34,533 bases of DNA from Janthinobacterium sp. GTDB lineage: Bacteria; Pseudomonadota; Gammaproteobacteria; Burkholderiales; Burkholderiaceae_D. This document shows, piece after piece, positions 1,477-11,640 of this stretch. The notes below the pieces were generated by a model that ran no database searches, was not told the DNA's origin, and was given only the letters and a program-made list of their open reading frames with translations. The translations under genes were made by a program, and so were the position numbers. The stretch spans positions 1 through 34,533 of the forward strand of contig JANXSQ010000094.1 of the NCBI GenBank assembly GCA_025356595.1. Reading direction: 5' to 3'. Positions within the stretch are counted from its first letter, which is position 1. Each line of letters starts with the position of its first letter.

Positions 1477-2190
1477 ATGAAATCCCCCATCCTGTTCCTC
1501 GCCGCCGGTCTGCTGTGCACCCTCGCCCAGGCCGCCGCGCCCGCGCCCGACCTCGACCTCGGCATCCAGTACTACAGCCGCGTGCTGACGCCCGAAGGCG
1601 TGACGCGCGAGAGCCGCTACGAGGAAAAAATGCTGCGCCGTCCCGGCCACATCTGGGTCGAACGCGTGCTGCCGAAGAGCGTGGCCGCCAAGGACGCGCC
1701 GGCCGCCGGCGCGACGAAGCAAAAAGTCGCCTTCAAGCCGGCCCAGCACGAACACAAGGAATTCAATCACGTCGTCATTCCCCGCCACGTCATTCTGGAG
1801 AAGAACAAAGTGCGCCTCGAATACGTCGACGCGGACGACAAGCAGGTGATCTCGATTCCGCCCACGGAATACGAGAACGTCAATTTCGACGGCTCCTGGG
1901 AAAACAGCTTCTACCTGCTCAATCCGGCCCTGGTGGCGGCCATTCCGCTCTCCAAACAAGCCTCCAGCGTGGCCGGCGCGCGCTGGCACGAAGTCGAGAA
2001 AAACGGCGTCTTCCAGCGCGTGCTGTGGGACGATCAAAAGCAGATCGCCCTGATCATCGAGAGCGGCGACAAGGCCAACACCTTCTACCGCCGCGTCGAT
2101 GTCAAGCCGCAGGCCAGCCTGAGCGCCGAGCTGCCGTGGACCAAGGTCAAGGGCTACGGCCTGAAAGAGTATTCCGACTTCCTCGATTAA
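1477..2190 (+). CDS. Exported protein of unknown function
   Basis: A 237-residue protein whose function I do not recognise. The N-terminus (MKSPILFLAAGLLCTLAQA, then AAPAPD) is a clear Sec signal peptide with an AQA-type cleavage site near residue 19, so the mature protein should be periplasmic or secreted. The mature part is mixed polar and charged, has no further hydrophobic segment, no Cys pair and no enzyme motif I can name, and is rich in aromatic and charged residues (for example YYSRV and FDGSWENSFYLL). It lies 137 bp downstream of the alkaline phosphatase on the same strand, so co-transcription is possible but unproven. The start is chosen because the signal peptide begins directly at this ATG; the ribosome binding site is weak (GAAAG). 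Confidence 0.75.
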   Translation: MKSPILFLAAGLLCTLAQAAAPAPDLDLGIQYYSRVLTPEGVTRESRYEEKMLRRPGHIWVERVLPKSVAAKDAPAAGATKQKVAFKPAQHEHKEFNHVVIPRHVILEKNKVRLEYVDADDKQVISIPPTEYENVNFDGSWENSFYLLNPALVAAIPLSKQASSVAGARWHEVEKNGVFQRVLWDDQKQIALIIESGDKANTFYRRVDVKPQASLSAELPWTKVKGYGLKEYSDFLD

Positions 2191-2420
2191 ACCGGCCTTG
2201 AGCGGGGCCGCCGCGCCCCGCCACGGCGGCGGCGCGCGCTGAAGCGGGCGCGGCCGCGCCGTGCGCAACAAGCGCGCGCCCGACCGCCCCATCGGTCCGG
2301 GCGGGCCGCTCGCCTCGAGCAGCCCGTAGCACACACTCTGTAAAACATCCCCACCTCACCCGGATCGTACCTGCGCTTGCGCATGAAGCGGCGTCGGCGC
2401 ACGGCGCAATCGGCGCACGT

Positions 2421-2463
2421 AAAAAAACGGCGACAGCACTTGCGCGCTGTCGCCGTTTTTTTT
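2421..2463 (-). terminator. Bidirectional intrinsic terminator between the exported protein gene and topB
   Basis: A perfect 11-bp stem (ACGGCGACAGC at 2427-2437 with GCTGTCGCCGT at 2446-2456) and an 8-nt loop. A run of A precedes the stem and a run of T follows it, so it can act on either strand. It lies 14 bp beyond the topB stop on the minus strand. The rest of 2191-2476 is very GC-rich and shows no gene. Confidence 0.9.
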
Positions 2464-2476
2464 GTCGCGCCGCCGC

Positions 2477-5161
2477 TTACTCGGCGACGGCGGCCTTCTT
2501 GGCCGGGGCTTTTTTCACCGCGGCTTTTTTCACCACGGTCTTCTTGGCGACGGCTTTCTTGGCCGGGGCCTTGGCGGCGGCCTTCTTCACCGCCGTCTTG
2601 GCCGGCGCCGCCTCGGCGGCGTCCGCACCCTCGGCGCCGTCGGCGGCGACTGCCGCCGCCTTGCCCTTGGCCGGCGCCTTCGCCTTGCGCTCCTCGAACT
2701 CGAAGCTGATCTTGCCGTCCTTGCCCTTGACCAGGAAGGCCTTGAAGGGACGGCGCGTGCGCTGCGAGACGAAGCCCGGCATCAGGTCGGTCTTGCCGGC
2801 CGTCAGCAGTTTCACCATTTGCTCAGGCAAAATCTCCTGCTGCAGGATGATGCGCCCGCTGCGGAAGTCGCAGGTCTTCGGCCGCGCCACGCTGTTTTCG
2901 CACACATAGGCCAGGCCCATTTCGTAGACGCCGGCGGCGCACTTCGGACACGGTCCCAGCGCCGTCTGGGCGCTGAAATCGACCGGTTCGGCGTTTTCAT
3001 CGTCGTCGTTCTGGCCGAAGTCGAACTCCAGCTTGAAGTTGCTGATGTCCTCGTCGCGCACGATGCGCAGGATGGCCGCGAACGGCCGCCCCATCTTCGA
3101 GCGGAAGCCCTGCAGCGGACCGATGGTGCGGTTGGTCAGCAATTCCTCGACTTCGGCGATTTCGAACTGGCGGCTGCCCGGCGTCTTGCTCATCGAGAAG
3201 TCGCACTTGGTGCAGGCGAAGCGCCGGTAGTTTTCCTTGACCACGCTGCCGCAGTTCGGGCACGGCGTCGTCATCGTCGCGTAGTCGCCGGGGATGGTGT
3301 CGTTGTCGTATTCCTTGGCGCGCTTGACGATGATTTGCGTCATCTGGGCGATTTCGCGCATGAATTCCTCGCGCGAGATCTTGCCTTTTTCCATCTGCGA
3401 GAGCTTGTATTCCCACTCGCCCGTCAGTTCCGGCGCCGTCAGTTCGTTCACGCCCAGGCCGCGCAGCAAAGTCATCAGCTGCGACGCCTTGGCCGTCGGA
3501 ATCAGTTCGCGGCCTTCGCGGATCAGGTAGCGCTCGGTCAGCAAGCCCTCGATGGTGGCCGCGCGCGTCGCCGGCGTGCCCAGGCCCTTGCCGGCCATGG
3601 CGTCGCGCAACTCGTCGTCGTCGATCAGCTTGCCCGCGCCCTCCATCGCCGACAGCAGCGTCGCCTCGGTGTAGCGGGCCGGCGGCTTGGTCACCAGGCC
3701 GTTCGCGCTGACTTTCTCGGTCAGCACCTTCTCGCCCTTGGCCACCGGCACCAGATTGCCGTTGCCGCTGTTTTCCTTGTCTTCGTCGGTCGACGCTTCC
3801 TTGCCGTAGATCGCCAGCCAGCCCGGATTGGTCATGACCTTGCCTTCGGTCTTGAACTGATGGCCGGACACTTCGGTGTAGCGGGTCGTGACCTGGAACT
3901 CGGCCGCCGGGAAGAACACGGCCATGAAGCGGCGCGTCACCAGGTCGTACAGCTTCTGTTCCGGCTCGGACAGGTTCTTCGGCGCGATGGTGGTCGGGAT
4001 GATGGCGAAGTGATCCGAGATCTTGGTGTTGTCGAAGATGCGCTTGTTCGGCTTGACCCAGCCCTTGTCGATGATCTGCTTGGCGAACTGGTGGTAGTTA
4101 TTGTTTTCCATCACCGTCTCGAGCGCCTGCTTGACGGTCGGGATGTAGTCTTCCGGCAGGTGGCGCGAATCGGTACGCGGATAGGTCAGCACCTTGTGCT
4201 TTTCATACAGGGCCTGCGCCAGGCCCAGGGTGTTCTTGGCCGAGAAACCGAAACGCGAGTTGGCCTCCCGTTGCAGGCTGGTCAGGTCGAACAGGGCCGG
4301 CGCCATCGAGGTCGTCGGTTTCGATTCCTCGCTGACGATGCCCTGGCGGCCGCGGCAGGCGGTGGCGATGGAGTCGGCCGCCGTCTTGCTCCACAGGCGC
4401 TCGGCGCGCTTCTCCGGGTCCGTCTCGTCCTTCTTGAAGGCCGTGTCGAGCCAGCGGCCCTCATAGATGCCGGCCGCGCAAACGAACTCGGCGCGCACTT
4501 CCCAGAAGTCGCGCGAGACGAATTTCTTGATCTTGTCTTCGCGCTCGACGACGATGGACAGCGTCGGCGTCTGCACCCGGCCGACGGTGGTCAGGTAGAA
4601 ACCGCCCTCTTTCGAGTTGAAGGCCGTCATGGCGCGCGTGCCGTTGATGCCGATCAACCAATCGGCTTCCGAGCGGCAGCGCGCCGCGTCGGCCAGCGGC
4701 AGCATTTCCTCGTCGCTGCGCAATTGCGTGAAGCCGTCGCGGATCGCGCCCGGCGTCATCGACTGCAGCCACAGGCGCTTGATCGGTTGCTTGGCCTTGG
4801 CGTTCTGCGCGATCAGGCGGAAAATCAGCTCGCCCTCGCGCCCGGCATCGCAGGCGTTGATGAGCGCGGTGACATCCTTGCGCTTGATTAATTTGTTCAA
4901 TACTTTGAGGCGCGCCTCGGTCTTGGCGATCGGGTTCAGCGCGAAGTACGGCGGGATCATCGGCAGATGCGCGAAGCTCCACTTGCCGCGCTTGACGTCG
5001 TGCTCTTCCGGCACGGCGATCTCCAGCAGATGGCCGACGGCCGACGACAACACGTATTCGTCCGATTCAAAGTACTCATCGTGCTTGGTGAAGCCGCCAA
5101 GCGTCTTCGCGATATCGTTCGCGACAGAAGGCTTCTCGGCGATGATGAGGGTTTTTGTCAT
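2477..5161 (-). CDS. topB: DNA topoisomerase III with a histone-H1-like Lys/Ala tail
   Basis: Type IA topoisomerase that passes single strands to decatenate and relax DNA. The 894-residue product opens with a Toprim domain (KTLIIAEKPSVA; acidic motif DAGREGE at residues 105-111). The catalytic tyrosine is Y327 in LTYPRTDSRHLP. The C-terminal part has two four-Cys zinc-binding units (C634/C637/C650/C653 and C738/C741/C754/C764), each followed by a repeat of the type often attached to these enzymes (MGRPFAAIL; RRPFKAFL). Residues 826-894 are almost only Ala, Lys and Pro, in repeats such as KKAPAKKAAV, like histone H1 tails; this is probably disordered and DNA-binding. It is the last gene of the lysM-dprA-smg-topB block, 189 bp after smg, and is followed by a strong terminator. 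The start is ATG at 5161 with a weak GAGA. Confidence 0.95.
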   Translation of the reverse strand: MTKTLIIAEKPSVANDIAKTLGGFTKHDEYFESDEYVLSSAVGHLLEIAVPEEHDVKRGKWSFAHLPMIPPYFALNPIAKTEARLKVLNKLIKRKDVTALINACDAGREGELIFRLIAQNAKAKQPIKRLWLQSMTPGAIRDGFTQLRSDEEMLPLADAARCRSEADWLIGINGTRAMTAFNSKEGGFYLTTVGRVQTPTLSIVVEREDKIKKFVSRDFWEVRAEFVCAAGIYEGRWLDTAFKKDETDPEKRAERLWSKTAADSIATACRGRQGIVSEESKPTTSMAPALFDLTSLQREANSRFGFSAKNTLGLAQALYEKHKVLTYPRTDSRHLPEDYIPTVKQALETVMENNNYHQFAKQIIDKGWVKPNKRIFDNTKISDHFAIIPTTIAPKNLSEPEQKLYDLVTRRFMAVFFPAAEFQVTTRYTEVSGHQFKTEGKVMTNPGWLAIYGKEASTDEDKENSGNGNLVPVAKGEKVLTEKVSANGLVTKPPARYTEATLLSAMEGAGKLIDDDELRDAMAGKGLGTPATRAATIEGLLTERYLIREGRELIPTAKASQLMTLLRGLGVNELTAPELTGEWEYKLSQMEKGKISREEFMREIAQMTQIIVKRAKEYDNDTIPGDYATMTTPCPNCGSVVKENYRRFACTKCDFSMSKTPGSRQFEIAEVEELLTNRTIGPLQGFRSKMGRPFAAILRIVRDEDISNFKLEFDFGQNDDDENAEPVDFSAQTALGPCPKCAAGVYEMGLAYVCENSVARPKTCDFRSGRIILQQEILPEQMVKLLTAGKTDLMPGFVSQRTRRPFKAFLVKGKDGKISFEFEERKAKAPAKGKAAAVAADGAEGADAAEAAPAKTAVKKAAAKAPAKKAVAKKTVVKKAAVKKAPAKKAAVAE

Positions 5162-5350: not shown

Positions 5351-5815
5351 TTAATGCAGCAGGCGGGGGGCGCGCTCTTCGTCGCCGCCGAACAGGTCGT
5401 CGAACATCAGCGCGTCCGGCTCCTTGCCCTGGCTCCACAGCAGCATCAGCACGATCACCTTCAGCTTGCCCAGCGCGACCGGCGATTCGTCCAGCGCCAG
5501 CGCGCGCTCGACGACGATCTCCCGCTGCAGCGGACTGAGCACCTTGGCGCTTTCCAGGAAGGCGATGAAGCCGATCGCCGCCGTGCCCAGGGTGTCGCAC
5601 TCTTCCTGCACGTAGAAGCGCGTGCCGGTCGAGCCGGCCGTCAGCAACTGCGGCTCCACCGCCATCGCCGTCAGGTCGGTCAACCACACCAGCGCCTCGG
5701 AAATCTCCTCCTCGTCGAAACCGACGGCCGACAGCTTACGCGCCAGCGCGGCCGGCTCGGGGCAGGCGTCGGGGCGGTAATAGGTTTCGTAGAGATATAC
5801 AAGGATGTCGAACAT
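5351..5815 (-). CDS. smg: Smg family protein (DUF494)
   Basis: A 154-residue protein of the Smg/DUF494 family, whose molecular role is not established. The N-terminus [13 protein letters not shown] and the acidic helical segment [13 protein letters not shown] are characteristic. The central part ([13 protein letters not shown]) and the end ([11 protein letters not shown]) also match what I recall of the family. The length is normal. It lies between dprA and topB on the minus strand, its usual neighbourhood in Beta- and Gammaproteobacteria. Here a 167-bp palindromic repeat sits in the 216 bp between dprA and smg, so transcription entering smg from dprA must cross it. Confidence 0.9.
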
Positions 5816-5868
5816 AGCTCTACTCTATCAGCTAAGCTCCTTGCGGCACAAGGGCCGCCGCCGCGGCT

Positions 5869-6035
5869 CTCAGAGGCTGAGAGTATTTCGGACGTGGGCG
5901 AGCAGCGCGCCAGAAGGTGGCCGATCAAGGCGCAAAGCACAGCCATAGCTCGGGCTATGGCGAGCATTTGCAACGCCGAGCGGGCACTTTCTGGCGTGAT
6001 GAGCGCGCATGAACGAAAGCCTCTCAGCCTCTCAG
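5869..6035. repeat. 167-bp palindromic dispersed repeat, copy 1
   Basis: This stretch matches 11070-11236 in the same orientation at 164 of 167 positions (differences at 5885, 6020 and 6028) and the match stops sharply at both ends. It is an imperfect palindrome throughout. The ends pair as AGAGGCTGAGAG with CTCTCAGCCTCT, a middle block pairs CGCCAGAA with TTCTGGCG, and the tip is a perfect 8-bp stem GCCATAGC/GCTATGGC (5942-5949/5954-5961) with a TCGG loop. The last bases CTCTCAG carry the TGA stop of dprA (6032-6034 on the complement). It lies between smg and dprA. ERIC-like or MITE-like is inference from architecture; I do not recognise the family. Confidence 0.9.
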
Positions 6036-7147
6036 TCGCCAAGGCGCTGGAAGACGCCGCCGGGCAGGCGCTCGACGCGGCCGTCCAGCTCCAGCGCCAG
6101 CAGGCGCCCGACGACGCCGGCCACGTCCAGGCCGGCGCGCGCGGCCAGCGTGTCGGCGCTGGCCGGATCGTGCCCCAGCAGGGCCAGCAGGGCCGCGTCC
6201 GCCGCCGGGGCGGCCGGCGCCTGCGCGGCGGCGGGCGGCGCCGGCAGATTCAACTCCTGCAACACGTCGGCCGCCGTCTCGACCAGCTTGGCGCCCTGCT
6301 TGATGAGCGCGTGGCAACCCTTCGCCAGCGCCGCGTGGATGGAGCCGGGAATGGCGAACACCTCGCGGCCCTGCTCGGCGGCCAGGCGGGCCGTGATCAG
6401 CGAACCGGACTGCGCGGCCGCCTCGACCACCAGCACGCCGCGCGCCAGGCCGCTGATCAGCCGGTTGCGGCGCGGGAAGTTGGCCGCCAGCGCGGGCGTG
6501 CCCAGCGCGTACTCGCTGACGATGCAGCCCTCTGCGGCGATGCGCCGCGCCAGCGCGCCGTTGGCGGCGGGATACTGGCGGTCGGCGCCGGTGCCGATCA
6601 CGGCGATGCTCGAGCCGGCGCCGCGCAGGCCGCCCTCGTGCGCGGCCGCGTCGATGCCCAGCGCCAGCCCGGAGACGATGCACAGGCCCGCCTCGCTGAG
6701 CGCCTGGGCGAAGCGCAGGGCGTTGGCGGCGCCCTGGGCGCTGGCGTTGCGGCTGCCCACCAGCGCCAGCGCCGGCCCCGACAGTAGCGCGGCGCGGCCG
6801 CGCACATATAAGAGCAGCGGCGGATCGGGAATCTCCAGCAGATAGGGCGGATAGGCGGCGTCGCCCAGCGTCAGCACGGCGTTGCCGGGCAGCGCCAGCC
6901 AGGCCAGCGTGGCGTCGAGCTGGGCCGTCAGGCGGGGCGGCGTGCGCGCCAGCGCGTCCGCCGGCTGCGCGCCGAGCAGTTCGCGCAGCTCGGCCTGGCC
7001 GGCGCGGAAGATGGCGCCCGGCAAGGAGAAGCGCGCCAGCAGGCGGCGCGCCGTCAGCGCCCCCACCCCGGCCGTCATCTGCAGGCGCAGCCAGTGGACC
7101 AGGGCGTCGTCGCCGGCGGCGGGGGGCGGGGTGTCCGTGGCGTGCAC
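6032..7147 (-). CDS. dprA: DNA-processing protein DprA
   Basis: DprA (Smf) loads RecA onto incoming single-stranded DNA during natural transformation. The 371-residue product has a helical N-terminal domain (residues 10-80), the Rossmann-like DprA core with ALVGSRNAS, SGLALGIDAAAH, IGTGADRQYP, NFPRRNRLISGL and SGSLITA, and a C-terminal winged-helix-like region (about 310-371) after an Ala/Pro linker. The start is GTG at 7147, 7 bp after the stop of the upstream lysM gene, so the two are probably co-transcribed. Its TGA stop lies inside the right end of the 167-bp repeat, so the extreme C-terminus may have been set by insertion of that element. An intact dprA fits competence, but no other competence gene is in view. 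Confidence 0.95.
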   Translation of the reverse strand: MHATDTPPPAAGDDALVHWLRLQMTAGVGALTARRLLARFSLPGAIFRAGQAELRELLGAQPADALARTPPRLTAQLDATLAWLALPGNAVLTLGDAAYPPYLLEIPDPPLLLYVRGRAALLSGPALALVGSRNASAQGAANALRFAQALSEAGLCIVSGLALGIDAAAHEGGLRGAGSSIAVIGTGADRQYPAANGALARRIAAEGCIVSEYALGTPALAANFPRRNRLISGLARGVLVVEAAAQSGSLITARLAAEQGREVFAIPGSIHAALAKGCHALIKQGAKLVETAADVLQELNLPAPPAAAQAPAAPAADAALLALLGHDPASADTLAARAGLDVAGVVGRLLALELDGRVERLPGGVFQRLGD

Positions 7148-7154
7148 GGCGGGC

Positions 7155-8252
7155 TTACTCCGGTGAGGTGGCGACGTCGCCGATCTGCACCGGTTCCGTG
7201 ACCTGCATGATCAAGCCGTAGGAAATGTGCTTGAAGACGCGGAAGATGAACAGGCTGCCGTATTGTTCGTCGGGCAGCTTGACCTGCGGTTTACCCATGC
7301 CGTGCCAGCCCTTCGGGCCGGTCGCGTCAGTCACCGTCTTGCCGTCATGGTACAACTGCAGCACGGCGCCGATGTCGAGCCCGTCAAGGGCGCCGCGATT
7401 AACGCTGACGATCTGGTTCTGTCCGGCGAAGCCGACCCCGCCGTAGATCGACATCACCCGCGCGTCGACCTGGCGCTCGGGCGGGTGCGGCGCGTAGTTG
7501 CGCATCGGCGTGGGCGGCGCCTGCAGCAACTGGTCGCCCACGCCCATCTCCTCCTTGGCGCTGGCGACGGCGAAGGTGTGCACCTCGCCGCCCGGCTTGG
7601 CGGCCGCGCTCAGCATCAGCGTGCCCAGGTAGAAGGCTTCGTAGCCGAGCACGGCGTGGGTGACCGGATCCTTCAGCGGCTGGCCGGGGCGGAAGACCTG
7701 GAAGGAGTTGCCGCCCTTCAGGTCGCCGCGCACATAGGCCTTGTCGCCCTTGCCGATGAATAAATGGTTTTCCTGGGTGGCGACGATGCGCGGCGCGCCC
7801 GCCAACTCGTCGGCCTCGATGATCAGGGGCTGGGTCAGGAAGGGTTCGATGACGCCCGAGGGAATCGAGGCCACCGCGTCCTTGCCCAGGCCCTCGACGC
7901 GCAACTGCGGCGCCAGGCGCGTGTCCCGCGGCGCGCCGGCCGCGCCGGCGCCGATCGGCCGGCCCAGGCGCAGGCGTCCGGCGGTGCGGTCCAGGTAGAC
8001 GATCTGGCCCGGATAGATCCAGTGCGGGTTGTGGATTTCCTCGCGGTTCAGGCCCCACACCTGGCCCCAGCACCAGGGGTGCTCGAGGAATTTCCCGGAA
8101 ATGCCCCACAGGGTGTCGCCCCTGACGACCTCGTGCTGGTCCGGCGCGTCGGCCAGGAAGGCGCAATTGGCCGCCTGCGCGGCGCCGCCTGCGGTGGCGG
8201 CGAAAAGCGCCGCAAAAACAAGGCGGGCCCCGACTGTGCTAAAATTTTCCAT
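7155..8252 (-). CDS. Exported LysM-domain protein
   Basis: A 365-residue exported protein with one LysM module (about residues 39-90: HEVVRGDTLWGISGKF, then NPHWIYPGQIVYL), a fold that binds peptidoglycan glycan chains. The remaining roughly 270 residues contain no catalytic motif I recognise. I chose ATG at 8252 because MENFSTVGARLVFAALF followed by an AQA-type cleavage site makes a proper signal peptide and GGA lies upstream; an ATG at 8276 would add eight polar residues and has no ribosome site. It is the first gene of the minus-strand lysM-dprA-smg-topB block and is divergent from def. LysM genes beside dprA are common in Burkholderiales; the role is probably cell-wall related. Confidence 0.88.
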   Translation of the reverse strand: MENFSTVGARLVFAALFAATAGGAAQAANCAFLADAPDQHEVVRGDTLWGISGKFLEHPWCWGQVWGLNREEIHNPHWIYPGQIVYLDRTAGRLRLGRPIGAGAAGAPRDTRLAPQLRVEGLGKDAVASIPSGVIEPFLTQPLIIEADELAGAPRIVATQENHLFIGKGDKAYVRGDLKGGNSFQVFRPGQPLKDPVTHAVLGYEAFYLGTLMLSAAAKPGGEVHTFAVASAKEEMGVGDQLLQAPPTPMRNYAPHPPERQVDARVMSIYGGVGFAGQNQIVSVNRGALDGLDIGAVLQLYHDGKTVTDATGPKGWHGMGKPQVKLPDEQYGSLFIFRVFKHISYGLIMQVTEPVQIGDVATSPE

Positions 8253-8580
8253 TAATATGTCCGTAAAGTGCGGCATTGGCGGAAAGCCGAAGCGCGTCCG
8301 ACCCGGCGCAATCGCTGCCCGGGCCTGTGTCTGCGCCGGAAACAGCCGTCTGACACGCTGCCCCGGCGACGCCGGGGCTTGCCGAACTGAATCAAATTCT
8401 GCCCATAAAACCTTGAACTAGCAAGAGAAACCGCGCTCCGGACACCCCGGCCGCTGTTGCGTTTTGGGCCGGAACCGATTCCGCCGGCGAATTCAGCGCC
8501 GACCGACGCCGCTGGCCCATCGCGCAAGCGTCCGCACTATCCTATACTTTATTGTGTAGCCACTAACCTGCCGAATTCGT
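8253..8580. promoter_or_regulatory. Divergent promoter region between lysM and def
   Basis: These 328 bp separate the divergent lysM and def genes. TATACT at 8543-8548 is a credible -10 element for def, but no good -35 is visible. A perfect 8-bp hairpin GCCCCGGC/GCCGGGGC (8360-8367 and 8371-8378, loop GAC) would lie in the leader of the lysM transcript if its promoter is near 8390-8420. I see no gene in the region. Confidence 0.45.
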
Positions 8581-9123
8581 ATGTCCATCCTAAATATTCT
8601 CCGTTATCCCGATCCGCGCCTGCACACCATCGCCAAACCCGTCGCCGTGTTCGACGAGCGCCTCAAGCAACTGGTGGCCGACATGGCCGAAACCATGTAC
8701 GAGGCGCCCGGCGTCGGCCTGGCCGCCTCGCAGGTGGACGCGCATATCCAGCTCGTCATCATCGACGTCACCGAAACCAAGGACGCGCTGCAGGTGTTCA
8801 TCAACCCGGAAATCATCTGGGCCAGCGCCGAGCTGCAAGTCTACGACGAAGGCTGCCTGTCGGTGCCCGGCATCTACGACGGCGTCGAACGCCACGCCGA
8901 GGTCAAGGTGCGCGCGCTCGACCTCCAGGGCCAGCCCTTCGAAGTGGCCGCCGACGGCCTGCTGGCCGTCTGCATCCAGCACGAAATGGACCATTTGCTG
9001 GGCAAGGTCTTCGTCGAATACCTGTCGCCCTTGAAACGCAACCGCATCAAGGCCAAGATGGTCAAGGAAATCCGCGGCCTGGAACGCGAAGCGGCGCTGC
9101 GCGCCCAGGGCCGCCGCTTCTGA
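8581..9123 (+). CDS. def: Peptide deformylase
   Basis: Metal-dependent enzyme that removes the formyl group from the N-terminal Met of nascent proteins. All three family motifs are present: GVGLAASQ (residues 44-51), EGCLS with metal ligand C92, and QHEMDHL with ligands H134 and H138 and catalytic E135. The 180-residue length is normal. It precedes fmt by 73 bp on the same strand, the classic def-fmt pair in which Fmt adds and Def removes the formyl group. Confidence 0.97.
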
Positions 9124-9163
9124 TCCGTAGCATCACGGGGCCGCCCGTCGTGCGGCCTGTAGG

Positions 9164-9181
9164 GTGGCGCCCAGGCGCCAC
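9164..9181. other. Small hairpin between def and fmt
   Basis: GTGGCGC (9164-9170) and GCGCCAC (9175-9181) form a perfect 7-bp stem with loop CCAG, ending just before the fmt ribosome binding site (AAGGA). It has no T-run, so it is not a clear terminator. It could modulate fmt translation or be the remains of a small repeat. Confidence 0.35.
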
Positions 9182-9196
9182 AAGCCAAGGAAAAGC

Positions 9197-10153
9197 ATGA
9201 AAGTCATCTTCGCCGGCACGCCGGAATTCGCCGCCGTCGCCCTGCAGTGCCTGCTCGACGCCGGCTTCGCGATCCCGCTGGTGCTGACCCAGCCCGACCG
9301 CCCGGCCGGGCGCGGCATGCAGATGCACGCCTCGGCCGTCAAGCAACTGGCCCTCAAGCACGGCATCGAGGTGCTGCAGCCGCTCTCGCTGCGCCGGGAC
9401 AGCAAGGACGCGCAACGCGCGGCCGAGGCGCAGGCGGCCCACGCGCGCCTGCTGGCGACCGACTACGACGTCATGGTGGTGGCCGCCTACGGCCTGATCC
9501 TGCCGCCCGGCACCCTGGCCATCAAGCCCTGTCTGAACATCCACGGTTCCCTGCTGCCGCGCTGGCGCGGCGCGGCGCCCATCCACCGCGCCATCGAGGC
9601 CGGCGACGACGAGACCGGCGTCACCATCATGCAGATGGAAGAGGGCCTCGACACCGGCCCGATGCTGGCCGTCGAGCGCGTCACCATCGCCGCGCAGGAC
9701 AACACCGGCAGCCTGCACGACAAGCTCGCCGCGCTGGGCGGCAAGATGATCGTCGCCGCGCTGCGCAAGCTGGAACAGGGCGCGCTGGAAGCGGTGCCGC
9801 AACCGGAGGCCGGCGTCACCTACGCCGCCAAGATCAGCAAGGACGAGGCGGCGCTGGACTTCAATCTGCCGGCGCTGGAACTGGGCCTGAAGATCCGCGC
9901 CTTCAACCCCTTCCCCGGCGCCAGCGCCCAGCTGGGCGGCGTGACCGTCAAGCTGTGGGCGGCCGAGGCCCTGGAGAGCGACAGCGAAGAGGATCCCGGC
10001 CAGGTGCTGGCGGCCGACGCCCAGCACGGCATCGTGGTCGCCTGCGGCGCCGGCGCGCTGCGCCTGACCGAACTGCAGAAACCGGGCGGCAAGCGCCTGC
10101 CGGCGGCCGAGTTCATCAAGGGCTTCGCCCTCGACGGCGCCCGCTTCTCCTGA
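9197..10153 (+). CDS. fmt: Methionyl-tRNA formyltransferase
   Basis: Transfers a formyl group from 10-formyl-tetrahydrofolate to initiator Met-tRNA. The 318-residue product begins with [12 protein letters not shown]. Its catalytic region has N114 and H116 (LNIHGS), the [12 protein letters not shown] loop (118-129) and D152 in LDTGPM. The C-terminal domain has the usual [11 protein letters not shown] and [10 protein letters not shown] segments. The start at 9197 is fixed by the family N-terminus and by AAGGA about 7 bp upstream; an earlier in-frame ATG at 9164 would add a non-homologous, basic stretch. The LysR gene begins 4 bp after the stop. Confidence 0.97.
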
Positions 10154-10157
10154 GCCG

Positions 10158-11060
10158 ATGGACCAACTGGCGGCGCTGCGCGCCCTGCGCAGCGTCGTCG
10201 AACTGGGCGGCTTCACGGCCGCCGGCGCGGCGCTGGGCGTGTCGCACACGGCCGTGTCGCGCCAGATCAGCCAGCTGGAAAGCCGCCTCGGCGCGCAATT
10301 ACTGAACCGCACCACGCGGCGCTTCGCCCTGACCGAGGCCGGCCGCCGCTACTACGACGCCGGCCGCGCCATCCTCGACGCCCTCGACGCGGCCGACCGC
10401 GCCGTCGGCCAGCACCAGACGCGCCCCTCGGGCACGCTGCGCATCAACGCGCCGATGGCCTTCGGCACGCTGGAGCTGGCGGCCTGGCTGCCGCAATTCC
10501 TCGCCGCCTATCCGGAACTGAAGGTCGACCTGGTCTGCAACGACCGCATCGTCGACCTGATCGAGGACGGCTTCGACGTCGCCCTGCGCCTGACGCGCGG
10601 CCTGCCCGATTCGACCCTGATGGCGCGCCGCCTAGCCGCCAGCCAGGTGATGCTGGTGGCGGCGCCCGCCTACCTGGCCAGGCGCGGCGCGCCGGGCACG
10701 CCGCAGGAACTGCTCGGGCACGACTGCCTGACCTACACCCAGGTGGCGAAACCGCAGGAATGGCGCTTCACCGGCCCGGACGGCGCCGCCCACAGCGTCA
10801 CCGTGCGCGGCAGCCTGCAGGCCAACACCGGCATCGCCCTGCGCGCCGCCGCCATGGGCGGCCTGGGCATCGCCACCACGGCCTCCTTCATCGTCCACGA
10901 GCAATTGCGCGGCGGCGAGCTGCTGCGCGTCCTGCCCGACTACGCCATCGAGCCGCGCGAACTGTACGCGCTGTATCCGCACAACCGCCACCTGTCGCCC
11001 AAGGTGCGCGTCTTCGTCGATTTCGCCGCCGAGCTCTACAAGACGCGCCGCTGGGACTGA
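10158..11060 (+). CDS. LysR-family transcriptional regulator
   Basis: A 300-residue LysR-type regulator. Residues 1-60 form the winged helix-turn-helix (GGFTAAGAALGVSHTAVSRQISQLESRLG, shown here by its ends GGFTAAG and LESRLG, with LLNRTTRRFALTEAG following). Residues 90-295 form the effector-binding domain (GTLRINAP, VDLVCNDRIVDLIEDGFDVALRL). It starts 4 bp after fmt, so it can be transcribed from the def-fmt promoter. It faces the isochorismatase/tautomerase pair tail to tail across the second 167-bp repeat. The effector and targets cannot be read from sequence. LysR genes often regulate neighbours, but here the obvious candidates are convergent rather than divergent. Confidence 0.93.
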   Translation: MDQLAALRALRSVVELGGFTAAGAALGVSHTAVSRQISQLESRLGAQLLNRTTRRFALTEAGRRYYDAGRAILDALDAADRAVGQHQTRPSGTLRINAPMAFGTLELAAWLPQFLAAYPELKVDLVCNDRIVDLIEDGFDVALRLTRGLPDSTLMARRLAASQVMLVAAPAYLARRGAPGTPQELLGHDCLTYTQVAKPQEWRFTGPDGAAHSVTVRGSLQANTGIALRAAAMGGLGIATTASFIVHEQLRGGELLRVLPDYAIEPRELYALYPHNRHLSPKVRVFVDFAAELYKTRRWD

Positions 11061-11069
11061 GGCGGCGGC

Positions 11070-11236
11070 CTCAGAGGCTGAGAGTTTTTCGGACGTGGGC
11101 GAGCAGCGCGCCAGAAGGTGGCCGATCAAGGCGCAAAGCACAGCCATAGCTCGGGCTATGGCGAGCATTTGCAACGCCGAGCGGGCACTTTCTGGCGTGA
11201 TGAGCGCGCATGAACGAAAGACTCTCAGTCTCTCAG
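11070..11236. repeat. 167-bp palindromic dispersed repeat, copy 2
   Basis: Second copy, in the same orientation and offset by exactly 5201 bp, with 164 of 167 bases identical to copy 1 and no indels. The apical 8-bp stem is at 11143-11150 and 11155-11162. It fills the gap between the convergent LysR gene (stop at 11058-11060) and the tautomerase gene, whose TGA (11233-11235 on the complement) lies in the terminal CTCTCAG. The near-identity of two non-coding copies suggests recent spread or gene conversion. Confidence 0.9.
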
Positions 11237-11640
11237 ACCGCGTCGAGCTCCTTCCTGACGGCGCGCCACTGCTGCGTCGCGCCGCCGTAGCCCCAGGCGG
11301 CCACGCGCGCGTCGTGCACGTGCACGTAGCTGACTTCGTGCAGCGCGCCCAGCAGTCCGTCCATCGCGCGGAACACGGCGCCGATGTAGGCCGCCTTTTG
11401 CGCCGCCGTGTTGGTTTCGTCCGTGACCAGGATGTCGAGGAAGAAGCTGGTCTTGCCCTGCGATTCCAGCGAGGTGCCGCCGACGAACCAGTGCTCCGGC
11501 GCGACGTGGCGTATCGCCACCGAGGTCAGCGCCGAGTCCTTGTGCAGGATCTGCTCGGTCAGGCGCGCCAGCGCGGCCGCCACGGCGGCGCTGCGGGCCG
11601 GATCCGCCGCGCCGGAAAGACTCACATTGAGGATGGGCAT
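11233..11640 (-). CDS. Tautomerase-superfamily protein
   Basis: A 135-residue protein of the 4-oxalocrotonate tautomerase/MIF superfamily. These enzymes use an N-terminal proline, exposed after Met removal, as general base. Two nearby starts exist: ATG at 11646 (Met-Ser-Met-Pro) and ATG at 11640 (Met-Pro-Ile-Leu). I chose 11640 because it gives the catalytic N-terminal Pro and because GGGGGA then lies about 6 nt upstream, whereas it would abut the ATG at 11646. The end (VSYVHVHDARVAAWGYGG) matches the family's C-terminal strand and Trp/Tyr-Gly region. It follows the isochorismatase-like gene by 2 bp, so the two are translationally coupled. Its TGA is inside the 167-bp repeat. The substrate is unknown. 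Confidence 0.85.
   Translation of the reverse strand: MPILNVSLSGAADPARSAAVAAALARLTEQILHKDSALTSVAIRHVAPEHWFVGGTSLESQGKTSFFLDILVTDETNTAAQKAAYIGAVFRAMDGLLGALHEVSYVHVHDARVAAWGYGGATQQWRAVRKELDAV

Follow-up and report, generated by a model that had tools for sequence, protein, structure and literature searches.

The two near-identical palindromic repeats in a 34,533-nucleotide stretch of Janthinobacterium sp. DNA (assembly GCA_025356595.1, contig JANXSQ010000094.1, positions 1 to 34,533 of the forward strand; hereafter the window) are likely to be copies of a non-autonomous transposon resembling miniature inverted-repeat transposable elements (MITEs), which has no protein gene and carries a conserved structured hairpin, most likely an RNA. 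An earlier note, written from the letters of the window alone, had suspected an undescribed ERIC- or MITE-like element, and this is supported by target duplications, by a match to the left end of an IS1182-family insertion sequence (IS) and by relatives that lack the insert. Beyond that first reading, the apical core is common to a wider set of palindromes bearing the ends of other IS families, and the fold is strand-biased.

As had been described, the repeats at 5869–6035 and 11070–11236 agree at 164 of 167 bases, with no indels and in the same orientation, and the terminal arms, the mid-arm and the 8-bp apical stem with its TCGG loop are all present. The 167-bp repeat is real but is longer than the element proper, which is a 159-bp palindrome with 11-bp terminal inverted repeats and the remaining positions are target bases. 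The fold of copy 1 has an energy of -104.7 kcal/mol, whereas shuffled sequences average -61.5 (z -10.9; none of 200 shuffles equals it). The element proper reaches -102.4 kcal/mol on the plus strand and -83.4 on the opposite strand in copy 1, and -105.0 and -77.0, respectively, in copy 2. The features of the two copies, given below, refer to the window's own family (family A) and to two covariance models of the core, R1 built from 12 sequences and R2 from 57 diverse cores; copy 1, itself among the training rows of R2, matches it with 79.2 bits (E 2.8e-19).

5869–6035, plus strand: copy 1 together with the target bases, in the order C, TCA, 159-bp element, TCA, G
5870–5872, no strand: left 3-bp target duplication TCA of copy 1
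5873–6031, plus strand: copy 1 element proper, family A, 159 bp, palindromic (family A alignment)
5873–5883, plus strand: left terminal inverted repeat GAGGCTGAGAG of copy 1, identical to the left end of an IS1182-family element
5918–5985, plus strand: conserved core hairpin of copy 1, common to arm families (R2 match, covariation)
5942–5961, plus strand: apical stem-loop GCCATAGC-TCGG-GCTATGGC of copy 1, with an 8-bp stem
6021–6031, minus strand: right terminal inverted repeat of copy 1
6032–6034, no strand: right duplication TCA of copy 1, which is the dprA TGA stop on the minus strand
11070–11236, plus strand: copy 2 with its target
11071–11073, no strand: left target duplication TCA of copy 2
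11074–11232, plus strand: copy 2 element proper, 159 bp
11119–11186, plus strand: conserved core of copy 2 (R2 match, 79.2 bits)
11233–11235, no strand: right duplication TCA of copy 2, which is the TGA stop of a tautomerase gene on the minus strand
6032–7147, minus strand: dprA (PF02481, 246 bits; PF17782, 59 bits), with copy 1 inserted at its stop codon
11233–11649, minus strand: tautomerase-family gene (PF01361, 32 bits; start approximate), whose stop is the insertion site of copy 2

The part that is conserved beyond family A is the apical ~67 nt, which we found in palindromes with unrelated arms: two relatives, G021 and G022, and plasmids from Cupriavidus, Variovorax and Mitsuaria have only this inner part in common, each palindrome having different arms. 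In the genome that contains the window (5.67 Mb, 419 contigs), R1 has 14 matches, six in family A, four in family B (ends CTAGTGTCCTGAATCAC) and four in family C (AAGGAGCCGTGAATAAATA-like ends), so that this genome alone holds three arm families; a fifth family B element was recognised by its ends. In surveys with R1, 84 of 300 genomes of the order (56 of 135 genera) and 84 of 369 of the class (68 of 272 genera) contained the core, and with R2 so did 91 of 398 sampled across the phylum (51 of 213 genera), in tallies that include the window genome and other training genomes; because few candidates were scored per genome (17, 14 and 13), the per-genome counts are lower bounds. Rfam gave no match on the elements within 5600–11500 (E up to 5) and none on elements at 20 loci of other families (E up to 0.1), where its only match was a glycine riboswitch adjoining one element. 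At that locus (L066, on contig C371 of the window genome, 322–521), two glycine riboswitch aptamers adjoin the family C element, the second truncated by the end of the stretch. Four other loci (L057, L060, L061 and L064) hold palindromes of ~260 bp with two opposed cores each.

The fold of the core and of the arms is maintained by paired changes. Absence of compensatory changes, which the earlier note had named as refuting its reading, did not occur: across 53 of the 59 family A elements (unusual lengths and two poor rows excluded), the structure of the window copy is kept in 94.3% of cells, and 20 of its 62 pairs show compensated changes, as compared with 5–11 in slid controls and 10.6 in shuffles. 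The compensated cells number 145 (8–23 when slid) and the score is 0.164 (0.028–0.045 when slid). The signal is stronger in the cross-family core alignment, which holds 57 of 68 matches (ten below 30 bits and a second L260 match were excluded). Here 18 of 19 pairs are compensated, against 11–14 in slid and 11.6 in shuffled controls, with 171 compensated cells (31–61 slid) and a score of 0.446 (0.043–0.115 slid). All eight pairs of the apical stem have compensated changes across families, and the bases left unpaired beside the stems AGGCGC and GCAACG hardly vary.

The strand named by this core (AGGCGC...GCAACG) is the more stable one in 55 of 60 distinct elements, by a mean of 13.5 kcal/mol (p 3.8e-11). 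These 60 were kept from 78 loci tried, the others being dropped because the core or the arms were weak or the locus was a repeat; with repeats included (L077/L092, and L100, which equals L036) the count is 56 of 61. When the core is removed, the same strand remains the more stable one in all 53 family A elements, and of 29 arm families 25 show this too (p 1e-4); it is also the more stable one in all 29 held-out family A elements folded whole. The mismatches in the arms are correspondingly uneven, with 222 G·U against 50 A·C and 167 G·A against 36 C·T on the core-named strand (duplicates removed), in cell counts that include related copies. Since a DNA cruciform would be symmetric and the arms are not, selection appears to act on one folded strand.

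To judge from sequence, the selected strand is probably RNA rather than single-stranded DNA. The DNA alternative, in which the hairpin would act in, for example, replication, conjugation or uptake, predicts strand bias equally well if one DNA strand folds, and in DNA, too, G·T and G·A disturb pairing less than the opposite mismatches. Nevertheless, a replication-strand bias that might be the source of the asymmetry was not found in three complete genomes, the top strand being leading in 19 of 52 elements (p 0.07); the 52 were drawn from 60 matches (15 of 18 in G041, 8 of 9 in G062 and 29 of 33 in G226, weak ones omitted), with the origin set at dnaA and the terminus assumed opposite. This lack of a clear bias leans toward RNA, and we regard the single-stranded DNA explanation as rather unlikely. 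Template switching inside the hairpin during replication would keep the palindromes perfect with no selection, and quasi-palindrome correction is a known mutational process that gives paired changes; it predicts neither the excess of G·U over A·C in the arms nor the conserved unpaired bases of the internal loops across arm families, and is very unlikely to be the explanation. The hairpin could also be a transcription terminator or insulator between convergent genes, and a crude caller of open reading frames (ORFs) gives convergent flanking genes for 14 of 49 elements in family A and for 15 of 42 outside it, with divergent ones for 6 and 7. The element end, however, has no run of T, the genes on either side of some copies point the same way (dprA and DUF494 at copy 1) and termination does not require conserved internal loops, which makes this account quite improbable.

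A last alternative is that the repeats are a plain MITE, derived by deletion from a single IS1182 element and with nothing special about the core, and the ends, size, target duplication and copy pattern do agree. The relevant element is a 1685-bp one in Rhodoferax ferrireducens (locus L171), which has the same left end as family A, is flanked by CTCA and TCAG and encodes an IS1182-family transposase (348 bits, cut-off 270). A template search, however, found no core inside it, and cores are also present under ends of IS5 and IS630 type, which already contradicts this explanation and leaves it highly improbable. The arms of the G022 palindromes match the end of an Aromatoleum element annotated as IS5 at 22 of 22 bases and that of a Paraburkholderia element at 24 of 25, the latter scoring as IS5 with 364.7 bits (cut-off 140). 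Likewise, the Cupriavidus arms match a Variovorax paradoxus IS630 element (233.8 bits, cut-off 100) at 26 of 27 bases, and the family B arms match a G1085 IS630 element (268.2 bits, same cut-off) at 25 of 28 by our own count. In two other genomes, G062 has putative IS5-like elements whose ends resemble its own palindromes, and G041 has two intact IS1182 elements whose ends are unlike the palindromes of G041.

The core types are distributed across these ends. ATAG-type cores are confirmed with ends of IS1182 (L001), IS5 (L011) and IS630 (L028) type, and besides the ATAG core of L028 an AGG core (L065) is also found under IS630-type ends. When 107 elements were roughly classed the picture was the same: ATAG cores occur in each of the three end classes (21, 29 and 7), ends resembling CTAGTG enclose both AGG (18) and ATAG (21) cores, and 28 elements have no end class. 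This covers 107 of 119 loci (eight without core or arms and four repeats were left out) and uses regular expressions on the first 40 bases that misplace some rows (L037, L055), and the confirmed IS matches were relied on instead. As the same core type occurs under different ends and the same ends over different cores, ends and cores have been reshuffled, and the core is not tied to one transposase. On plasmid p1 of Cupriavidus sp. KK10 (L258, ~1501–1559) there is also a very short palindrome with Cupriavidus-type ends and no core.

The target sites of the window repeats are also MITE-like. The target is CTNAG with a 3-bp TNA duplication, and both window copies sit in CTCAG between TCA triplets. 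Among the 59 family members, which were taken from 80 listed stretches and the loci of the window genome and are mostly 157–159 bp long, 51 have identical flanking triplets (TCA 45, TGA 3, TAA 2, TTA 1), as do 23 of 29 held-out members (TCA 22, TGA 1) obtained from 40 loci unused at first; the left CTNAG of most members was a requirement of the search pattern, the right one being unconstrained. The duplication reads TCA in the orientation of the element in 45 of 51 and 22 of 23 cases (59 and 29 family A elements, respectively), a predominance implying that the insertion orientation is nearly fixed relative to the asymmetric target.

The earlier note had placed the overlap with coding sequence at the terminal stop only, and the right duplication indeed supplies the TGA stop in both copies. 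Among 48 elements with a stop-like right triplet, the ORF of the right flank (at least 100 codons, or at least 60 where it runs off the contig) terminates precisely at that triplet in 35, the other frames giving 19 and 5; in the held-out set it does so in 18 of 25 (other frames 9 and 2). The reading frame of the neighbour is thus preserved because the duplication restores its stop codon.

The window genome holds six near-full copies and one 48-base match, two of the copies at contig starts; such repeats break assemblies. A full-length match is present in none of 40 relatives and a partial one in three, of which that in G013 covers 32 query bases and is probably due to chance. Elsewhere, a pattern scan of named genomes returned at least 120 stretches with the family end sequence, mostly from Burkholderiales, the hosts among the matches listed including Massilia glaciei, Acidovorax, Polaromonas, Rhizobacter, Hydrogenophaga and Rhodoferax. 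The family of the window is therefore present in many genera, many of them Burkholderiales, and the simple local duplication that the earlier note had offered as a counter-explanation does not hold. A phage origin was rejected, a phage collection having no match to the element.

Empty sites, which the earlier note had suggested looking for in close relatives, were found at the dprA junction: we searched 39 relatives and read 29 loci, of which 28 span the site without the element. The spanned junction has 121 bases in 26 relatives, 85 in one and 186 in one, as compared with 84 in the query; the intergenic DNA is too diverged for the edges to be resolved base by base. Locus L278 (G022:C7) does not span the junction. 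At this dprA–DUF494 junction, the same as that of copy 1, ~1 kb of other DNA with a 130-residue ORF lies between two matches.

A larger unit with family A ends is found on contig C307 of the window genome (L026, G000:C307:30500-37000, at ~1735–4887). It is 3.15 kb long and has long inverted arms, with 81-nt and 66-nt stretches that are 89% and 92% complementary, and it contains genes resembling a glutathione transferase, a PPOX-type flavoprotein and a TetR regulator, all under the NCBIfam cut-offs. Its right arm contains an IS1182 C-terminal remnant, and the unit is possibly a passenger-carrying transposon without an intact transposase.

Several observations weigh against the interpretation of the repeats as a trans-mobilised carrier of a one-stranded hairpin. 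The right end of the Rhodoferax IS1182 element fits family A less well than the left, and the search for an autonomous IS1182 partner within the fragmented window genome yielded only the remnant on contig C307 and a second weak match on C52, so that this candidate was rejected. Compensated pairs also appear in the slid controls of both alignments, and the training genomes in the survey tallies and the related copies in the mismatch counts belong here too. The cross-family core itself shows little strand bias (40 G·U to 26 A·C, repeated loci included); in family A any G·U occurs in 33 of 62 pairs and any A·C in 21; and four of the 29 arm families lack the bias. Two of these four hold members with two opposed cores (L060, L061 and L064, but not L063), for which loss of strand bias is expected under the one-strand reading; this does not account for the other two. 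The stop-supplying gene in family A reads the less stable strand. In the CTAG families the stop-codon effect is weak (other frames 5 and 0, 4 and 1), and relative to the gene that supplies the stop the elements face either way equally often, seven left and seven right, so that a sense-strand element of the 3' untranslated region was rejected as a general rule.

Taken with these reservations, the interpretation we prefer is still that of MITE-like copies around a conserved hairpin. The elements very probably transpose in trans: resident or visiting IS1182, IS5 and IS630 transposases would recognise the ends and move them. Core-bearing elements may meet IS ends at common CTAG or CTNAG targets and so acquire new ends, which would then be duplicated around the hairpin. 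The RNA could be produced by read-through from neighbouring genes, and the hairpin with its conserved internal loops might dock a widespread RNA-binding or processing protein in cis, so that insertions at gene ends are tolerated; we put forward this cis action only tentatively. It is also conceivable, if short of probable, that the core represents a phylum-wide structured RNA family outside Rfam, a mobile module that persists by switching carriers (IS1182, IS5 and IS630 ends) while selection for RNA function keeps the folded core.

Bacterial MITEs such as Correia, Nezha and similar elements are small and non-coding, with terminal inverted repeats and target duplications, and are presumed to be moved in trans by IS transposases. 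The present elements share their size, their non-coding nature, the inverted repeats and the target duplication, and additionally have ends like those of an autonomous IS (more weakly on the right) and empty sites in relatives. MITEs described so far are, to our knowledge, each defined through a single IS partner and that partner's ends, while the elements described here keep the inner core and change ends between IS families; they behave as MITEs do, except that conservation is greater in the core than at the ends. ERIC is likewise a long imperfect palindrome of similar size in intergenic DNA; its sequence is not known to be similar, and target duplications and IS-type ends are visible in the present elements. 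REP and BIME sequences are also dispersed palindromes with a conserved stem, but REPs are short and linked to Y1 (RAYT) transposases, whereas the ends described here match DDE transposons with TNA or TA targets. IS1272, a member of the IS1182 family to which the transposase of the family A partner belongs, is reported to prefer stem-loop targets, which it replaces without leaving a duplication (PMC5678879); the present elements show TNA duplications instead. Other MITEs have been described as well (PMC4853749). A search of the open-licence literature found no description of the core.

MITEs are usually seen as the passive leftovers of one IS; in the present elements it is the interior that is conserved, and the ends can be exchanged. 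If the selected strand is RNA, the core would constitute an unlisted and widespread RNA family, and the window's family, sitting at stop codons, could join transcripts. Two questions thereby become testable: by what route a non-autonomous element changes its transposase, and what host factor the core is recognised by.

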